Shown here piece by piece: positions 11,521 to 50,482 of a stretch of 64,000 nt of DNA. This DNA comes from Paenibacillus sp. GM2. GTDB lineage: Bacteria > Bacillota > Bacilli > Paenibacillales > Paenibacillaceae. Within the stretch, counting starts at the first letter, position 1. Every line of letters starts with the position of its first letter. The notes under the pieces are model-generated. The model saw only the letters and a program-made list of their open reading frames with translations, was not told the origin of the DNA and did no database searches. The stretch covers positions 456,305-520,304 of the forward strand of contig NZ_LN831279.1 of the NCBI RefSeq assembly GCF_900069005.2, in the 5' to 3' direction. The position numbers were made by a program, and so were the translations under genes.

Positions 11521-12972
11521 ATGGGACACCCATCGATTTATCCGACAGGGGCTACGGTCTATAGGCCAGAGCTGGCCTGGAGCGGATATACCCTCTATCA
11601 AGCTGCTGATCTGGGGGCACTGTTAGTCGATATGAACGGGAAAGAGGTTCATCTATGGAAAGGGCTGCGTGGGTTTCCAAATAAGCTGCTGCCCGGAGGA
11701 TATGTACTTGGAAGCACTGCTGAGCGTGATCCGAAGTATGGATTTCAGGACGAATCTGATCTGGTCCAGGTCGATTTTGCGGGGAATATCGTATGGCGCT
11801 TCAACCGCTATGAATGGATAGAGGACCCGGGGCATGAACCGCAATGGATGGCCAGGGCGCATCATGATTACCAGCGGGAAGGCAATTCGGTGGGCTACTA
11901 TGTACCTGGCTCCGATCCGAAGACAAGCGAAGGGAACACGTTGATCCTCGTTCACAAAAATGTGCAAAATCCGGCTATCTCTGACAAGCCGCTGCTGGAT
12001 GATGCGATCATCGAAGTCGATTATGCAGGCAATATCGTCTGGGAATGGAGTTGCAATGAGCACTTCGAAGAACTGGGCTTTGATGAATCAGCCAGAAATG
12101 TTCTGTTCCGCGACCCAAATACCCGTTTCTTCGGCGATCATGCCGGTGACTGGATGCATATCAATTCCATGTCGGTACTTGGTCCTAACCGCTTCTATGA
12201 TCAAGGGGATGAACGCTTCCATCCGGACAATATTATCTGGGATGCAAGGGAGTCCAACATCATAGCTATCATTGACAAACGGACGGGGAAAATCGTCTGG
12301 CGGCTGGGGCCGGATTATTCATCCCCGGAACTTAAAGGTCTAGGCTGGATTATCGGCCAGCATCATGCACATCTGATTCCACGCGGTTTACCCGGAGAAG
12401 GCAATCTGCTGGTGTTTGACAACGGCGGTTGGGCTGGCTATGGCGCCCCTAATCCCGCTTCTCCTTACGGGGCGAAAAACGCCGTTCGTGATCATTCCCG
12501 CATTCTGGAGATCGACCCGGTGAGCTTGGAAATCGTCTGGCAATATACGCCGACAGAGGCCGGATTTCAGGAGCCGCTGGATTCTTATCGGTTCTACAGC
12601 CCCTATATCAGCTCCGCGCAGAGATTACCCAACGGCAATACGCTAATTACGGAAGGCGCGGACGGCCGGATTCTGGAAGTTACACGGTCGCATGATTTGG
12701 TATGGGAATATATTTCGCCTTATAAGAACACACGAAATGCCAATATGGTGTACCGGGCTTACCGGGTTCCATATGAATGGGTACCCCAGCTTCCGCGGCC
12801 GGAGGAGAAGGCGATTGAACCGCTTGATATCGCTAATTTCAGAGTGCCCGGTGCGGCGCCCAGGGGAGCTCATTCCGTCGTTGAAGTTGCTGGAACGATA
12901 TCCTATGGCGACGGGGCGGCCTGCGTAGCCCGAACTGATGAGAAGTCATTTTATCTGAATAATATAGATTAG
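11521..12972 (+). CDS. Aryl-sulfate sulfotransferase family protein
   Basis: A 483-residue member of the arylsulfotransferase (ASST) family. The family folds as a six-bladed beta-propeller and, in characterised members, moves sulfate between phenolic compounds. Repeated blocks of type ILEIDPVSLEIVWQYTP and NTLIPTEGADGRI type are visible, with QHHAHLIPRG and HINSMSVL carrying candidate catalytic histidines. No signal peptide is present, unlike the periplasmic Gram-negative enzymes. The ATG at 11521 has AAGGAGAG eight bases upstream. The next three genes form a transporter for sulfonate- or nitrate-like substrates, which suggests shared use of organosulfur compounds. Confidence 0.85.
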   Translation: MGHPSIYPTGATVYRPELAWSGYTLYQAADLGALLVDMNGKEVHLWKGLRGFPNKLLPGGYVLGSTAERDPKYGFQDESDLVQVDFAGNIVWRFNRYEWIEDPGHEPQWMARAHHDYQREGNSVGYYVPGSDPKTSEGNTLILVHKNVQNPAISDKPLLDDAIIEVDYAGNIVWEWSCNEHFEELGFDESARNVLFRDPNTRFFGDHAGDWMHINSMSVLGPNRFYDQGDERFHPDNIIWDARESNIIAIIDKRTGKIVWRLGPDYSSPELKGLGWIIGQHHAHLIPRGLPGEGNLLVFDNGGWAGYGAPNPASPYGAKNAVRDHSRILEIDPVSLEIVWQYTPTEAGFQEPLDSYRFYSPYISSAQRLPNGNTLITEGADGRILEVTRSHDLVWEYISPYKNTRNANMVYRAYRVPYEWVPQLPRPEEKAIEPLDIANFRVPGAAPRGAHSVVEVAGTISYGDGAACVARTDEKSFYLNNID

Positions 12973-16504: not shown

Positions 16505-17494
16505 TTGGTCAAAAGAGGAATGAGAGATTTGATGCAGCAAATGGAGAGTTCCAGCCGATATATTTACCCTTTTGCCTGTCATGAGACAGAGCGTGATCTG
16601 TGCAGGATGGAGCTTCAGGCGCTATTTGGATATGCTGTTGATCCTGTTGGACCGTATCCATTTGTGGATACGTCCATTGTAATCGATCCGAGCCGCAGTC
16701 CTTATCTGTCGCTGAGGATGGATGTATGGATTAGCGAGGTTTCTTGGGAGGAACTGCTGCGGCAGGCAGCTGAGCTGGAGCTTCAGGATAGGACATTTAA
16801 AGTAAAATATATCAAAAATGGTGATCCGCGCAGCTTTGACGAGCAGCGGCAGATGGAGCGTCAGGTTGGGAGTGTGATTCGCGGCAAGGCGGAGATGCGT
16901 ACGCCGGATCTGATCTATGGCTTGCTCTCTCATCACGGGCGCTGGACGCTGGGGGTCTGTCATCCGGCACGTTCAGTCTGGCTGGAGCATAAGCATAAGC
17001 CGCAAAATTACTCGACAGGACTCAGCACCGCAGTTGCTCGCGCATTAGTTAATATCGCGGCTCCTCAACCGGATGGCTTGCGGTTGATCGATCCCTGCTG
17101 CGGCATGGGCAATGTGCTGATCGAGGCGTTGTCGATGGGGATCGACATGGTCGGTCAGGATATTAATCCGCTGGCGATTAAGGGCGCACGTGTGAATTTG
17201 CACCATTTTGGCTATGAGTCGAAAGGCTTGGTAGAGATCGGTGATATGAACGACATAACTGAACATTACGACGCCGCGGTTCTTGATATGCCCTATAATC
17301 TCTGTTCGGTGCTTCCACGAGATGAACGGATTAGGATGCTTACGAGTCTGAAGCGAATTAGCATCCGTTCGGTGATTGTCTCTTCAGAGCCGCTTGAGGA
17401 GGAGATTCGCGAGGCCGGTCTGACGGTAATGGATCAAGGGAAAATCTTGAAAGGTTCATTTATTCGCAATGTATGGCTGTGCAGGAGCGAGTGA
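16505..17494 (+). CDS. Class I SAM-dependent methyltransferase, TRM11/UPF0020-like
   Basis: A protein of about 329 residues that probably methylates RNA. The C-terminal half holds a Rossmann methyltransferase domain: LRLIDPCCGMGNVLIEAL is the SAM-binding motif and AVLDMPYNL is the DPPY-type motif of N-methyltransferases. The N-terminal part is an RNA-binding-like region without a clear THUMP domain. The start is uncertain: TTG 16505 has GAGGA about six bases upstream, but ATG at 16520 or 16532 could also be used. It stands alone upstream of the cobalamin riboswitch. Confidence 0.78.
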   Translation: MVKRGMRDLMQQMESSSRYIYPFACHETERDLCRMELQALFGYAVDPVGPYPFVDTSIVIDPSRSPYLSLRMDVWISEVSWEELLRQAAELELQDRTFKVKYIKNGDPRSFDEQRQMERQVGSVIRGKAEMRTPDLIYGLLSHHGRWTLGVCHPARSVWLEHKHKPQNYSTGLSTAVARALVNIAAPQPDGLRLIDPCCGMGNVLIEALSMGIDMVGQDINPLAIKGARVNLHHFGYESKGLVEIGDMNDITEHYDAAVLDMPYNLCSVLPRDERIRMLTSLKRISIRSVIVSSEPLEEEIREAGLTVMDQGKILKGSFIRNVWLCRSE

Positions 17495-17644
17495 GGGGGG
17501 TTAAGGCCATCTTAATGCAGAATTGCTGCAGTAGATAGAGCTATATGAACGGCTCTGGATATTGTGTTCAATCTTCTTTTCCCCTATAATCCAATAGAGA
17601 AGATAGCCTTGCTTCGAGCTGATTAATTGAATAAAAATACTTGC

Positions 17645-17822
17645 TGGTCCTGAGTTAGCGGCGCATGACGCCATACGCTCGGGTGAAAAGGGAAGCCGGT
17701 GCAAGTCCGGCGCGGTCCCGCCACTGTAAACAGGAACGAAGCCTAATTTGCCACTGTCAACGCTCAAGTTGATGGGAAGGCGGGCTTCAAGTCTTAACCT
17801 GTAAGTCAGGAGACCTGCCGCG
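17645..17822 (+). promoter_or_regulatory. Cobalamin riboswitch
   Basis: The element senses adenosylcobalamin or a related corrinoid. The B12 box is at 17693-17727, with GGTGCAAGTCCGG, then GCGGTCCCGCCACTGT. The downstream AAGTCAGGAGACCTGCC block is at 17803-17819. This pattern is diagnostic. It lies upstream of btuF with a terminator hairpin between, so high B12 would stop transcription of the uptake genes and, by read-through, cobTUSQ. Confidence 0.96.
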
Positions 17823-17936
17823 AGTATATGAGACGGTCCTTCGAGGAAAGGATGGCGTTCTGCTAAGCTAAAGATGCTGATCTGCGTATGGAGGTTACTT
17901 GTTCTGTCCGGATCAGACATAATACTTTGTAGACGT

Positions 17937-25328: not shown

Positions 25329-25357
25329 TTGACATACGCTTACATTTGTAATACGAT
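25329..25357 (+). promoter_or_regulatory. Promoter of the c-di-AMP riboswitch transcript
   Basis: TTGACA (25329-25334) and TACGAT (25352-25357) are 17 bases apart. Transcription would begin near 25364, just at the start of the aptamer. That makes the riboswitch transcript independent of cobQ. Confidence 0.7.
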
Positions 25358-25362
25358 AAATA

Positions 25363-25480
25363 TACGCTTAATTTTCGAATGGTAAAGTCGAAAAGCGGGG
25401 GAACCATTTTTTGGGGCGAATCGTTGTAAATACACGTAGGGAACCATCTTTCCCGAGTCCGTCAGCTAACCTCGTCAGCA
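25363..25480 (+). promoter_or_regulatory. ydaO/yuaA c-di-AMP riboswitch
   Basis: The conserved blocks of this class are present in order: CGCTTAA at the start, GGGGGAACCA, TTGGGGCGAATC, GTAGGGAACC, and then GAGTCCGTCAGCTAACCTCGTCAGC-type end with GTCAGCTAACCTCGT. This class binds cyclic di-AMP and usually turns genes off at high ligand. It controls potassium and osmolyte transport and cell-wall genes in Firmicutes. Here the next gene is a KamA-family radical SAM enzyme. Confidence 0.93.
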
Positions 25481-25486
25481 GTGGAT

Positions 25487-25535
25487 GGGTCATCATTTAT
25501 ACCGCTTTGCAATGACCCTGTTACGGGTCTTTTTG
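25487..25535 (+). terminator. Terminator/antiterminator of the c-di-AMP riboswitch
   Basis: GACCC (25514) pairs with GGGTC (25525) across TGTTAC and is followed by five T, forming an intrinsic terminator. The alternative partner GGGTCAT at 25487 can pair with ATGACCC (25512-25518), which would break the terminator. This is a simple on/off switch immediately after the aptamer. Confidence 0.82.
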
Positions 25536-25677
25536 CGCTTATGAATCTTTAAATTGTAAGCAATATGACCCGTTATTACTCGGCATCTAATGCCTTGCGC
25601 TGCACTGTCATCTTTGGTTTCCATGCTTCTTCTTTACGAATCGGCGATGTTGTTTGAGATAAAGGAGGAGATGGTGT

Positions 25678-26817
25678 ATGGCAAGCCCGAAGTACATTAC
25701 AAATATCGATAGGGTGACGCAGCTATCCCAGGCGGAACGGGAGCAATTGCGTCCGATTACTGACAAATTCGTGTTCCGGGTAAATGATTATTATTTGAAC
25801 CTGATTGACTGGGACGATCCTAAGGATCCGATTCGTAAGCTAGTGATTCCGAATACGGGGGAACTGCGCGAATATGGGCGCTGGGATGCTTCTGACGAGG
25901 ATACGAATTATGTCGTACCCGGCTGTCAGCATAAGTACCGGACAACGGCGCTTCTAATCGTCTCTGAGGTATGCGGCGCTTATTGCCGCTACTGCTTCCG
26001 CAAGCGGTTATTCCGTAATGATGTGAAGGAAGCGATGGCTGATGTCACGCCGGGGATTGAATATATCTCCAGGCATCCTGAGATCAACAATGTGTTATTG
26101 ACGGGCGGGGACAGTCTGATCCTTGCGACCTCCAAGCTGCGCATTATCCTCGAACGGCTACGGGCGATCGATCATGTGAAGATCATCCGGCTTGGCTCGA
26201 AGATCCCTGTGTTCAATCCGATGAGGATTTATGAAGATCCTGATCTATTGCAGTTGATCTCTGAATTCTCCTCAGCGGAGAAGCGCATTTATGTAATGGC
26301 GCATATTAATCATCCGCGGGAGATTACGGTGGAAGCGCGCAAATGCTTCGAGGCACTGCATAAAGCTGGAGCCATCGTTGTGAATCAGACGCCGATCCTG
26401 AAGGGAATTAATGATGATGAGAAGGTGCTTGGGGAACTGCTCGACAAATTGTCCTGGGCAGGCGTGACGCCTTATTATTTCTTCATCAACCGCCCGGTCG
26501 CCGGCAACTCCGATTTTGTGATTCCGCTGCAGCGGGCCTATCAACTGGTGGAAGGGGCTAAGGCCCGTACTTCCGGTCTGGGCAAGCGCGTTCGCTTATC
26601 GATGAGCCATACATCCGGCAAAATCGAAATATTGGCGATCGAGCACGGAATGGCGTACTTGAAATATCATCAATCCCGTGAGGATGAATATGGGAAGTTC
26701 ATGGTGCTTGAATGTCCGGAGGATGCAGCCTGGTTTGATGATCTTCCCGGTAATGAATCGTATTGGAAAAGACCCGAGAAGAAGCTGGCCGAGGCTGTCT
26801 CGGTGAATGAACTGTAA
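25678..26817 (+). CDS. KamA-family radical SAM aminomutase-like protein
   Basis: A 379-residue radical SAM protein of the lysine 2,3-aminomutase family. The cluster motif is CGAYCRYCFRKR at about residue 102, followed by LLTGGDSLI and the PLP/SAM-barrel block NQTPILKGINDD. It is shorter than true lysine 2,3-aminomutases (416 or more). The C-terminal segments that hold the lysine side chain in that enzyme are replaced: a D-containing CDL block by INRPVAGNSDF and the VDAPGGGGK block by SMSHTSGKIE. So lysine is probably not the substrate. AAAGGAGG precedes the ATG. Upstream is a c-di-AMP riboswitch. The product is unknown. Confidence 0.85.
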   Translation: MASPKYITNIDRVTQLSQAEREQLRPITDKFVFRVNDYYLNLIDWDDPKDPIRKLVIPNTGELREYGRWDASDEDTNYVVPGCQHKYRTTALLIVSEVCGAYCRYCFRKRLFRNDVKEAMADVTPGIEYISRHPEINNVLLTGGDSLILATSKLRIILERLRAIDHVKIIRLGSKIPVFNPMRIYEDPDLLQLISEFSSAEKRIYVMAHINHPREITVEARKCFEALHKAGAIVVNQTPILKGINDDEKVLGELLDKLSWAGVTPYYFFINRPVAGNSDFVIPLQRAYQLVEGAKARTSGLGKRVRLSMSHTSGKIEILAIEHGMAYLKYHQSREDEYGKFMVLECPEDAAWFDDLPGNESYWKRPEKKLAEAVSVNEL

Positions 26818-36919: not shown

Positions 36920-36953
36920 AAAAAACAAGCCCATGCGAAATAGAAGGCAGGGC
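36920..36953 (-). terminator. Candidate terminator of the queC riboswitch
   Basis: On the minus strand, GCCC and GGGC close a hairpin, followed by TTGTTTTTTG. It lies just after the aptamer, so it may be the expression platform. The stem is short. Confidence 0.45.
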
Positions 36954-36958
36954 GCCAT

Positions 36959-36992
36959 TAGTTTTTTATAGAGGGAGTTCGCGAACCTCTCT
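36959..36992 (-). promoter_or_regulatory. preQ1-I riboswitch upstream of queC
   Basis: On the minus strand the element reads AGAGAGGTTCGCG, AACTCCCTCT and ATAAAAAACTA, an almost exact match to the Bacillus preQ1-I consensus. The stem is AGAGG with CCTCT. It controls queCDEF so that preQ1 limits its own synthesis. Confidence 0.95.
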
Positions 36993-37042
36993 CATGCAGC
37001 GTCTGCATGAACTTCTTCAATTTTGATGGCGGATACGCAGTC

Positions 37043-50034: not shown

Positions 50035-50348
50035 TATACTACACTCCTCTGAAATAGTTGGTATTCAATGCCCTCAAAATCTATCGTCTATATGACTACG
50101 GATTTCGCCCCCCGTAGCTGGGGAAGCATGAGCACCATCACATCACCCTCCTTAATACATTTAATGTAAAAAGTCGTATAAATACGCGCTAAGGCACTTC
50201 GTTCTCAGCGGAACGAAATGCCTTATTAATAGGTACGATAACATAGAAAAATGGTTCTGTCGACCACATACTGGTTTAATATGGAATTTTTCGGCTGCCG
50301 GTTTTCATTCGTTCAAATTTTTGCTAATATGAAAGCATTAGTGCTGTA

Positions 50349-50421
50349 TGTGACTGGCGAAGCAAGTGGAATTAACCACGAGGGAGCATGCGGCTGATAA
50401 ACGATTCCGTTCGCCTGGGGA
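50349..50421 (+). promoter_or_regulatory. ZTP (pfl) riboswitch upstream of folD
   Basis: The class consensus is clear: TGACTGGCGAAG, then GTGGAATTAACCAC, GAGGGAGC, and CCGTTCGCCTGGG at the end. It binds ZTP/ZMP, which build up when 10-formyl-THF is short, and turns on one-carbon genes. It lies 110 bases before folD. Confidence 0.95.
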
Positions 50422-50482
50422 AAAGTATCTTCGATTGTCTCGTCCATTTGACGGGGCGCTCGTGGATGCTTTTTTTGCTTTT
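50422..50482 (+). terminator. Expression platform of the ZTP riboswitch
   Basis: CTCGTGG (50459-50465) is followed shortly by a run of seven T. Its perfect partner CCACGAG (50376-50382) lies inside the aptamer, overlapping the CCAC arm of the GTGG-CCAC hairpin. So terminator formation and the folded aptamer compete directly. A local CGTC-GACG stem also lies before the T run. Confidence 0.65.

Follow-up and report, generated by a model that had tools for sequence, protein, structure and literature searches.

The window is a stretch of 64,000 nucleotides from Paenibacillus sp. GM2 (contig NZ_LN831279.1, positions 456,305 to 520,304, read on the forward strand). The subject here is a cyclic di-AMP (c-di-AMP) riboswitch at window positions 25355 to 25495 and the gene that follows it at 25678 to 26817, both on the plus strand. 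The gene encodes a 379-residue radical S-adenosylmethionine (SAM) protein of the KamA family, a predicted 2,3-aminomutase of the pyridoxal phosphate (PLP) type with an arginine, Arg272, in its side-chain pocket. The ydaO-class covariance model of Rfam (RF00379) was matched over its full length (model positions 1-134 of 134) at 84.5 bits against a gathering cut-off of 38 (E 3.2e-18), and the protein scored 222.1 bits against the TIGR00238 cut-off of 199.2 for the KamA family. Both the aptamer and the single KamA-family gene had been proposed in a first-pass annotation of the sequence, and both are borne out. The presence of the riboswitch and its control layout before this gene is held with high confidence.

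A sigma-70-like promoter (TTGACA, 17-nucleotide spacer, TACGAT; 25329 to 25357, plus strand; 10 of 12 positions in a consensus scan) starts two bases past the stop codon that ends the preceding gene. The remaining control elements also lie on the plus strand. The aptamer-loop sequence CCATC (25444 to 25448) is the proposed pseudoknot partner of 25484 to 25488, as judged by conservation and covariation. In the tail GATGGGTCAT (25484 to 25493), GATGG can pair with 25444 to 25448 and GGGTCAT with 25512 to 25518, the latter forming an anti-terminator. An intrinsic terminator, GACCC-TGTTAC-GGGTC-TTTTT, was located at 25514 to 25534 by scan, conservation and folding (hairpin 25514 to 25529), and the ribosome-binding site AAAGGAGGA was read from the sequence at 25661 to 25669, eight bases 5' of the ATG. 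Taken singly, these consensus scans carry little weight, with 5 promoter-like sites where 2.6 were expected and 2 terminators where the expectation was 1.6. The terminator is convincing despite this because it is conserved: at 75 of the 86 riboswitch loci a scripted search placed one past the aptamer and ahead of the start codon (gene G013 counted twice).

Folded in isolation, the terminator (25505 to 25535) has an energy of -8.4 kcal/mol (z -3.1). The anti-terminator is the minimum free energy structure of 25478 to 25520 folded alone (-8.9 kcal/mol), an energy no better than chance (z -0.3), and the minimum free energy structure of the 68-nucleotide tail retains the terminator, not the anti-terminator. 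The CCATC/GATGG pair is almost invariant among loci whose loop was located. A compensatory change altering both sides (CCATA/TATGG) was found in one locus (L010), and the leaders of two glutamate 2,3-aminomutase (EAM) genes (L134, L145) carry other pairs at the loop and tail site that are still complementary. The tail GATGGGTC recurs across the Paenibacillaceae riboswitch loci and has two alternative pairing partners, the aptamer loop CCATC and, through GGGTC(AT), the terminator's left arm. The first-pass annotation had claimed a dedicated promoter and a mutually exclusive terminator; a promoter-like site, a terminator and a competing anti-terminator pairing were all found, and OFF logic is likely.

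By analogy, this arrangement is the OFF-switch layout measured for the Dehalobacter c-di-AMP riboswitch in PMC9337991. At high c-di-AMP, as in a K+-rich, turgid cell, the aptamer would fold and its loop CCATC would hold GATGG; GGGTCAT would then be kept from the left arm of the terminator, which would form and end transcription. At low c-di-AMP the anti-terminator would form and the KamA-family gene would be transcribed. The ligand would in this way turn the gene off.

The predicted structure of the protein (AlphaFold2; predicted local distance difference test (pLDDT) 93, predicted template modelling score (pTM) 0.91) has the fold of lysine 2,3-aminomutase (LAM). The closest PDB entry by sequence is LAM 2a5h (2e-54), to which the model was superimposed with Z 39.3 and a root-mean-square deviation of 2.3 over 322 residues at 32% identity; Foldseek also matched LAM. 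The cut-offs of the specific family models lie well above the scores obtained: 220.3 bits against an equivalog cut-off of 650 for EAM (TIGR04368, model positions 71-360 of 404 aligned), 212.3 against an equivalog cut-off of 525.4 for LAM (TIGR03820), 208.3 against 396.25 for AblA_like_2, 203.7 against an equivalog cut-off of 600 for arginine 2,3-aminomutase (TIGR04468) and 193.3 against an equivalog cut-off of 369.3 for EpmB (TIGR03821). The LAM_C domain had no match in the window protein. The arginine aminomutase and EpmB identities were rejected on their model scores, and that of LAM on model score and pocket residue.

Relatives were gathered from 197 genomes of the family, 98 of which have a protein match at E 1e-30 or better. 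Of 77 close copies, 75 were read, with G094 (internal stop) and G034 (contig end) left out; nine of these fall in a clade associated with phosphonate genes and 66 outside it. A further 13 distant relatives came from a draw across the phylum. The residues C99, C103, C106 and R108 and the PLP-type lysine K315 are invariant in 66/66 close copies, 9/9 phosphonate-clade copies and 13/13 distant relatives, and residue 272 is arginine in all 88 of these aligned clade members. The same catalytic residues and Arg272 were found in 80/80 named loci (the best 80 of 496 relatives, overlapping with the 66). At site 272, lysine is present in 37/37 EAM proteins (37 of 38 were taken into the pocket alignment), and aspartate in 13/13 LAM-type and 3/3 arginine-type proteins. 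The window protein thus differs from EAM in the residue while keeping its charge, and has Arg272 at the Asp293 site where LAM has aspartate.

Asp293 of LAM, aligned with residue 272, is taken by us from the 2a5h literature to be the ligand of the lysine amino group, and the arginine at the LAM Arg134 site presumably binds the carboxylate. The first-pass annotation had stated that the lysine-binding residues are replaced and that the enzyme is probably not a lysine aminomutase. The replacement stands at the Asp293 site; the column equivalent to Asp330 is uncertain, with a two-residue gap placed differently between alignments, though the 12 positions preceding the PLP lysine are free of acidic residues in all 66 active copies. 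With a score far under the LAM cut-off and arginine in every member, it is concluded with high confidence that the window protein is not a lysine 2,3-aminomutase. A basic residue and no acid in the pocket would fit an acidic side chain, and there is a fair case for an acidic substrate. Aspartate was rejected by reasoning, since 2,3-migration regenerates aspartate.

The riboswitch was scored upstream of the relatives by a regular expression for the core motif, which agreed with Rfam on the 20 loci compared. Upstream positions were checked on the DNA of each locus; genome-wide, among the matches listed, c-di-AMP riboswitches are present in 197/197 family genomes. Outside the phosphonate clade, 56 of the 66 close Paenibacillaceae copies have the riboswitch upstream, and none has aspartate at the lysine-binding site. 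This was the check that the first-pass annotation had proposed, and it came out in favour of a shared switch; with the covariance-model match given above, neither of the outcomes named there as refuting it occurred. Rfam found the riboswitch at 17 of 20 close-copy loci, the three misses being those of the regular expression, and 48 of 56 Paenibacillaceae loci among the named 80 carry it by the expression. By the same means, the LAM-type (0/9) and arginine-type (0/3) genes read from the family have no riboswitch. These two sets were placed by clade, with one member each (L099, L100) scoring above its cut-off; the arginine-type genes are L100 (662.4 against 600) and, by clade, L107 and L110. The tree was a quick one made without bootstrap, in which forks near the pseudoenzymes described below are weak and L112, L113 and L105 have long branches and unsure positions.

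The flanks of riboswitch-type copies contain no conserved recurrent neighbour. An operon partner was rejected for this reason, and the phosphonate and Bacillaceae contexts described below were taken as hints only. No acetyltransferase partner gene adjoins the locus in the window, as had been stated in the first pass. Flanks of 12 of the 13 distant loci (L120-L132, by eye) yielded neighbours common to one bacterial family only, and nothing telling.

A parallel is provided by EAM. Twenty of the 30 best-scoring EAM loci of the phylum draw were tested with Rfam, and 13 of them have a c-di-AMP riboswitch upstream at 90-109 bits; the regular expression, run on all 30, missed L272 (short flank). Five of five further EAM loci (L134, L135, L137, L140, L145), all with genes above the EAM cut-off, also have the riboswitch. 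The same signal therefore controls EAM genes in other Bacillota. The riboswitch-bearing EAM loci lie among L263-L290 and L134-L145 (Bacillota), and one of them has, besides the c-di-AMP riboswitch before its EAM gene, a SAM riboswitch directly after it (L145:1192-1298, minus strand). At E 1e-150, EAM matches occur in 182 of 398 phylum-draw genomes (135 above the cut-off); the window's genome has none, and neither has any of the 15 phylum-draw genomes with the Arg-pocket clade.

Glutamate is put forward as the substrate because the pocket charge resembles that of EAM and because the c-di-AMP regulation is shared. The lack of EAM in genomes with the Arg-pocket clade and the TRAP transporter near the Bacillaceae orthologues (both described with their limits below) are further points in its favour, and the c-di-AMP riboswitches before K+-uptake-like genes of the window's genome (Trk/Ktr-like and KdpA-like, by eye) support the reading as a whole. 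The Arg-pocket protein would then be a glutamate-type 2,3-aminomutase: a radical-SAM/PLP enzyme, with an invariant arginine replacing the acidic residue that holds lysine, which would most likely shift to carbon 3 the amino group of glutamate or of a closely related acidic amino acid. Inert and anionic, beta-glutamate would balance K+ and would need no second enzyme to act as an osmolyte. A single gene without a partner suits this product, because beta-glutamate requires no further enzyme such as an acetyltransferase. In PMC1224877, beta-glutamate of methanogens is described as a static, anionic pool and an ideal compatible solute, with glutamates at K+-like levels. The chances of glutamate with an osmotic role are put at about even. 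The full reading, a c-di-AMP OFF switch on a glutamate-type aminomutase that yields a beta-glutamate osmolyte, is preferred tentatively and falls a little short of even; the ligand response, its direction, the substrate and the osmotic role are its inferred parts.

Several observations weigh against this reading. Ten of the 66 close copies are without the riboswitch; nine of them form one clade in the tree, and in three named loci of that clade the gene follows argGH-like genes (by eye). Outside Paenibacillaceae, the named loci among the best 80 of 496 relatives are without the riboswitch by the regular expression (Bacillaceae 0/21, Anoxybacillaceae 0/2, unplaced 0/1), Rfam found no c-di-AMP riboswitch at eight such loci, and the distant phylum relatives have it in 0/13 (regular expression). 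The phosphonate side clade (nine rows, Shimodaira-Hasegawa-like approximate likelihood ratio test 99) has the same catalytic and pocket residues and no riboswitch (0/9, regular expression). By membership the protein is no EAM (220.3 bits against 650), and its arginine could suit other acidic substrates such as 2-aminoadipate or phosphono amino acids. The absence of EAM from genomes with the Arg-pocket clade may reflect ancestry, as the 15 genomes belong to few families. In methanogens, early nuclear magnetic resonance work excluded a glutamate aminomutase route to beta-glutamate, according to PMC1224877. The Bacillaceae neighbours (aminotransferase, transporter, regulator) look catabolic, an equally possible reading of that context. 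Finally, the pseudoenzymes indicate that the protein can persist without catalysis.

The strongest of the alternatives, though still unlikely, is a 2,3-aminomutase acting on another substrate (2-aminoadipate, glutamine, or a phosphono or small neutral amino acid), the product of which would be an osmolyte, a cell-envelope building block or a catabolic intermediate. The phosphonate clade speaks for it: the active-site residues are the same in 9/9 members, of which 7/9 have phosphoenolpyruvate (PEP) mutase and phosphonopyruvate decarboxylase in their flanks and the other 2/9 stand beside YheC/D ATP-grasp genes. In one member (G156), PEP mutase (374.8 against 319.55), the decarboxylase (400.6 against 312.5) and 2-aminoethylphosphonate (2-AEP) aminotransferase (370.9 against 360.8) all scored above their cut-offs, and three ATP-grasp proteins were confirmed by model. 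Given this setting, the enzyme's product may also be built into a phosphonate compound. The recurring phosphonate cluster (L074-L083, L163, L165, L166) comprises PEP mutase, the KamA-like aminomutase, YheC/D ligases, the decarboxylase and 2-AEP aminotransferase; among the open-licence papers listed on Paenibacillus, phosphonates and KamA, none concerns this cluster by its title.

The Bacillaceae copies cut both ways, their aminotransferase speaking for another substrate and their transporter for glutamate. Of the named loci (the best 80 of 496 relatives), 24 lie outside Paenibacillaceae, and fifteen of these, from Bacillaceae and kin, were chosen by hand. A TAXI-type binding protein of a tripartite ATP-independent periplasmic (TRAP) transporter lies near the orthologue in 8/15, as does a TRAP permease (8/15), and a class III aminotransferase resembling glutamate-1-semialdehyde aminomutase (GSAM) and an RpiR-type regulator are each found near it in 7/15. 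At one locus tested by model, the TRAP proteins scored above cut-off and the aminotransferase and regulator below specific cut-offs. The TRAP binding protein of one locus is closest to PDB entries 1us4/1us5, titled 'putative GluR0 ligand binding core', which we take to be a glutamate/glutamine binder; the GSAM-like aminotransferase, also from one locus, falls short of all the NCBIfam cut-offs shown and has beta-phenylalanine aminotransferase 4ao9 as a further match. Loci in which the orthologue is clustered with TAXI-TRAP, GSAM-like and RpiR-type genes include L248-L255 of alkaliphilic Bacillaceae. Near one of these (L248, Alkalihalobacillus sp. BA299) a selenocysteine tRNA (12828-12920) and a selenocysteine insertion sequence (SECIS) element (17185-17222) were found. 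Set against another substrate, the c-di-AMP link in common with EAM and the lone riboswitch-type gene suit beta-glutamate better.

Paralogues that have lost the iron-sulphur (Fe-S) cluster motif bear on the question of catalysis. Twenty-one riboswitch-linked paralogues, from 21 genomes, are without CxxxCxxC (rows L084-L098, L105, L114-L118; 21 of 22 pseudoenzyme-like copies were read, with G075 left out). They are 41-57% identical to the window protein (L105, 36%). The riboswitch core is kept in 21/21 by the regular expression and was confirmed by Rfam in 10/10 tested. The PLP lysine is retained in 9/21, Arg272 in 14/21 and the carboxylate-site arginine in 3/21. The model of one paralogue (L091) retains the fold, with pLDDT 84.5 and 2a5h as the best match (E 9.3e-18). 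Of 28 within-group pairs, 27 have a ratio of nonsynonymous to synonymous substitution rates (dN/dS) between 0.05 and 0.47, and these cover 16 of the 21; synonymous sites are saturated in the remaining pair, L115/L116 (pN/pS 0.40), and L084, L085 and L105 are in no pair. Given these low ratios, selection maintains the protein in 16 or more of the 21, and mere pseudogenes were rejected for most, with intact reading frames of 210-400 residues. A cysteine motif hidden by frameshift was also rejected, as the CxxxCxxC matches seen when all three forward frames are translated lie out of phase with the gene and do not resemble KamA.

The pseudoenzymes branch at some four points within the clade that bears the riboswitch (weak forks; the grouping of L085 with L115/L116 was flagged as possible long-branch attraction), and deletion lengths differ between their lineages. 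The Fe-S motif was probably lost in several separate lineages. Ten of the 21 belong to one genus group (g13). At E 1e-30, an intact copy of the riboswitch type is also present in seven of the 21 genomes; two have a phosphonate-clade copy only, and 12 have neither. Six loci (L086, L088, L095-L098) have downstream neighbours in common, and in four of them (L086, L088, L095, L096) a PspA-like gene, named by eye, follows after 174-302 bases. DUF4178-like and DUF4247-like genes were also seen by eye near some pseudoenzyme loci.

It is improbable, though supported by these paralogues, that the conserved c-di-AMP-controlled role is non-catalytic throughout and that aminomutase activity is ancestral or secondary. 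The switch kept in all 21, the purifying selection on 16 of them, the retained fold and the 12 genomes without an intact Arg-type copy are in its favour. Against it, 66/66 active copies keep all catalytic residues tested, for which selection needs the chemistry, and the pseudoenzymes may simply hold a new job. A related proposal is doubtful but more plausible: that in Paenibacillaceae c-di-AMP controls both the Arg-pocket aminomutase, probably of glutamate type, and pseudoenzymes under purifying selection, and that the protein has a non-radical job linked to c-di-AMP which the active enzyme may share. Such a job could be, for example, that of an amino-acid-binding sensor or a regulator of osmolyte or membrane stress, given that a PspA-like gene follows some of the pseudoenzyme genes.

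Very improbable, finally, is a lysine 2,3-aminomutase that supplies N-epsilon-acetyl-beta-lysine: it shares the fold and is the best PDB match, but its model score is missed by a wide margin (212.3 against 525.4), the site taken to hold lysine by an aspartate is arginine in every member, no acetyltransferase adjoins the gene in the window and no neighbour is conserved across riboswitch-type copies, and the family has separate LAM-type genes without the switch (0/9 read; L099 above the LAM cut-off). Its precedent is the published c-di-AMP control of ablA in the Dehalobacter tandem-riboswitch case (PMC9337991).

By eye, the upstream neighbour of the locus is a cobyric acid synthase gene and the downstream neighbour a chemotaxis receptor gene on the opposite strand. 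Other riboswitches found in the window by Rfam are of the cobalamin (17627-17836), ZMP/ZTP (50340-50427) and preQ1 (36952-36995, minus strand) classes. The genome of the window (5.85 Mb) has eight RF00379 riboswitches and one match to the KamA-family protein. Translations of the other riboswitch targets, read by eye, are one Trk/Ktr-like, one KdpA-like, two NlpC/P60-like and one LysM protein, with one not placed. A tandem pair of c-di-AMP riboswitches (L003, L005; G000:C10:1589414-1589956) precedes the KdpA-like gene.

If the preferred reading is true, c-di-AMP as a K+ and turgor signal directly governs the making of the anion that could accompany K+, two aminomutase clades in different lineages are under c-di-AMP control, soil Bacilli gain a route to the osmolyte beta-glutamate, and one residue defines a new specificity group of the KamA family. 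If the proposal for the paralogues is true, a radical-SAM enzyme has turned into a riboswitch-controlled non-enzyme. Within the open-licence literature, which was without the primary riboswitch papers, no report was found that joins c-di-AMP with glutamate 2,3-aminomutase, and none related to a c-di-AMP riboswitch on the Arg-pocket gene in Paenibacillus; among the papers listed there on radical-SAM pseudoenzymes and riboswitches, none is on KamA by its title. Within that literature the Arg-pocket clade under a c-di-AMP switch, the EAM parallel and the Fe-S-less paralogues are apparently undescribed.

Among known systems, RF00379 riboswitches on K+ transport and wall-hydrolase genes belong to the same RNA class, whereas the gene controlled here is that of an amino-acid mutase. 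LAM (AblA/KamA; TIGR03820, 2a5h) is alike in fold, radical-SAM cysteines, PLP lysine and the arginine of the Arg134 site, and differs in the lysine-holding aspartate, replaced here, and in the LAM_C domain. Arginine 2,3-aminomutase (TIGR04468) shares the KamA fold and catalytic residues but has an aspartate in its pocket (3/3). The first-pass annotation had regarded a c-di-AMP-controlled beta-amino acid osmolyte as new, a claim partly anticipated by the published case of Dehalobacter sp. CF, in which, by PMC9337991, a tandem Na+/c-di-AMP riboswitch stands on the lysine 2,3-aminomutase gene ablA. Both leaders combine a c-di-AMP aptamer with a dedicated terminator, follow OFF logic (likely in the present case) and precede a KamA-family gene linked to an osmolyte. 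Here there is one aptamer only, no Na+ riboswitch being above the gathering cut-off in the window by Rfam, and the enzyme has arginine where LAM has aspartate. The Dehalobacter paper also lists eam as one of the genes that carry Na+ riboswitches. EAM (TIGR04368) is the other close counterpart, sharing the KamA fold, the catalytic residues, a basic residue at the side-chain site and a frequent c-di-AMP riboswitch; it has lysine where the window protein has arginine, and its model cut-off lies far above the score obtained here.

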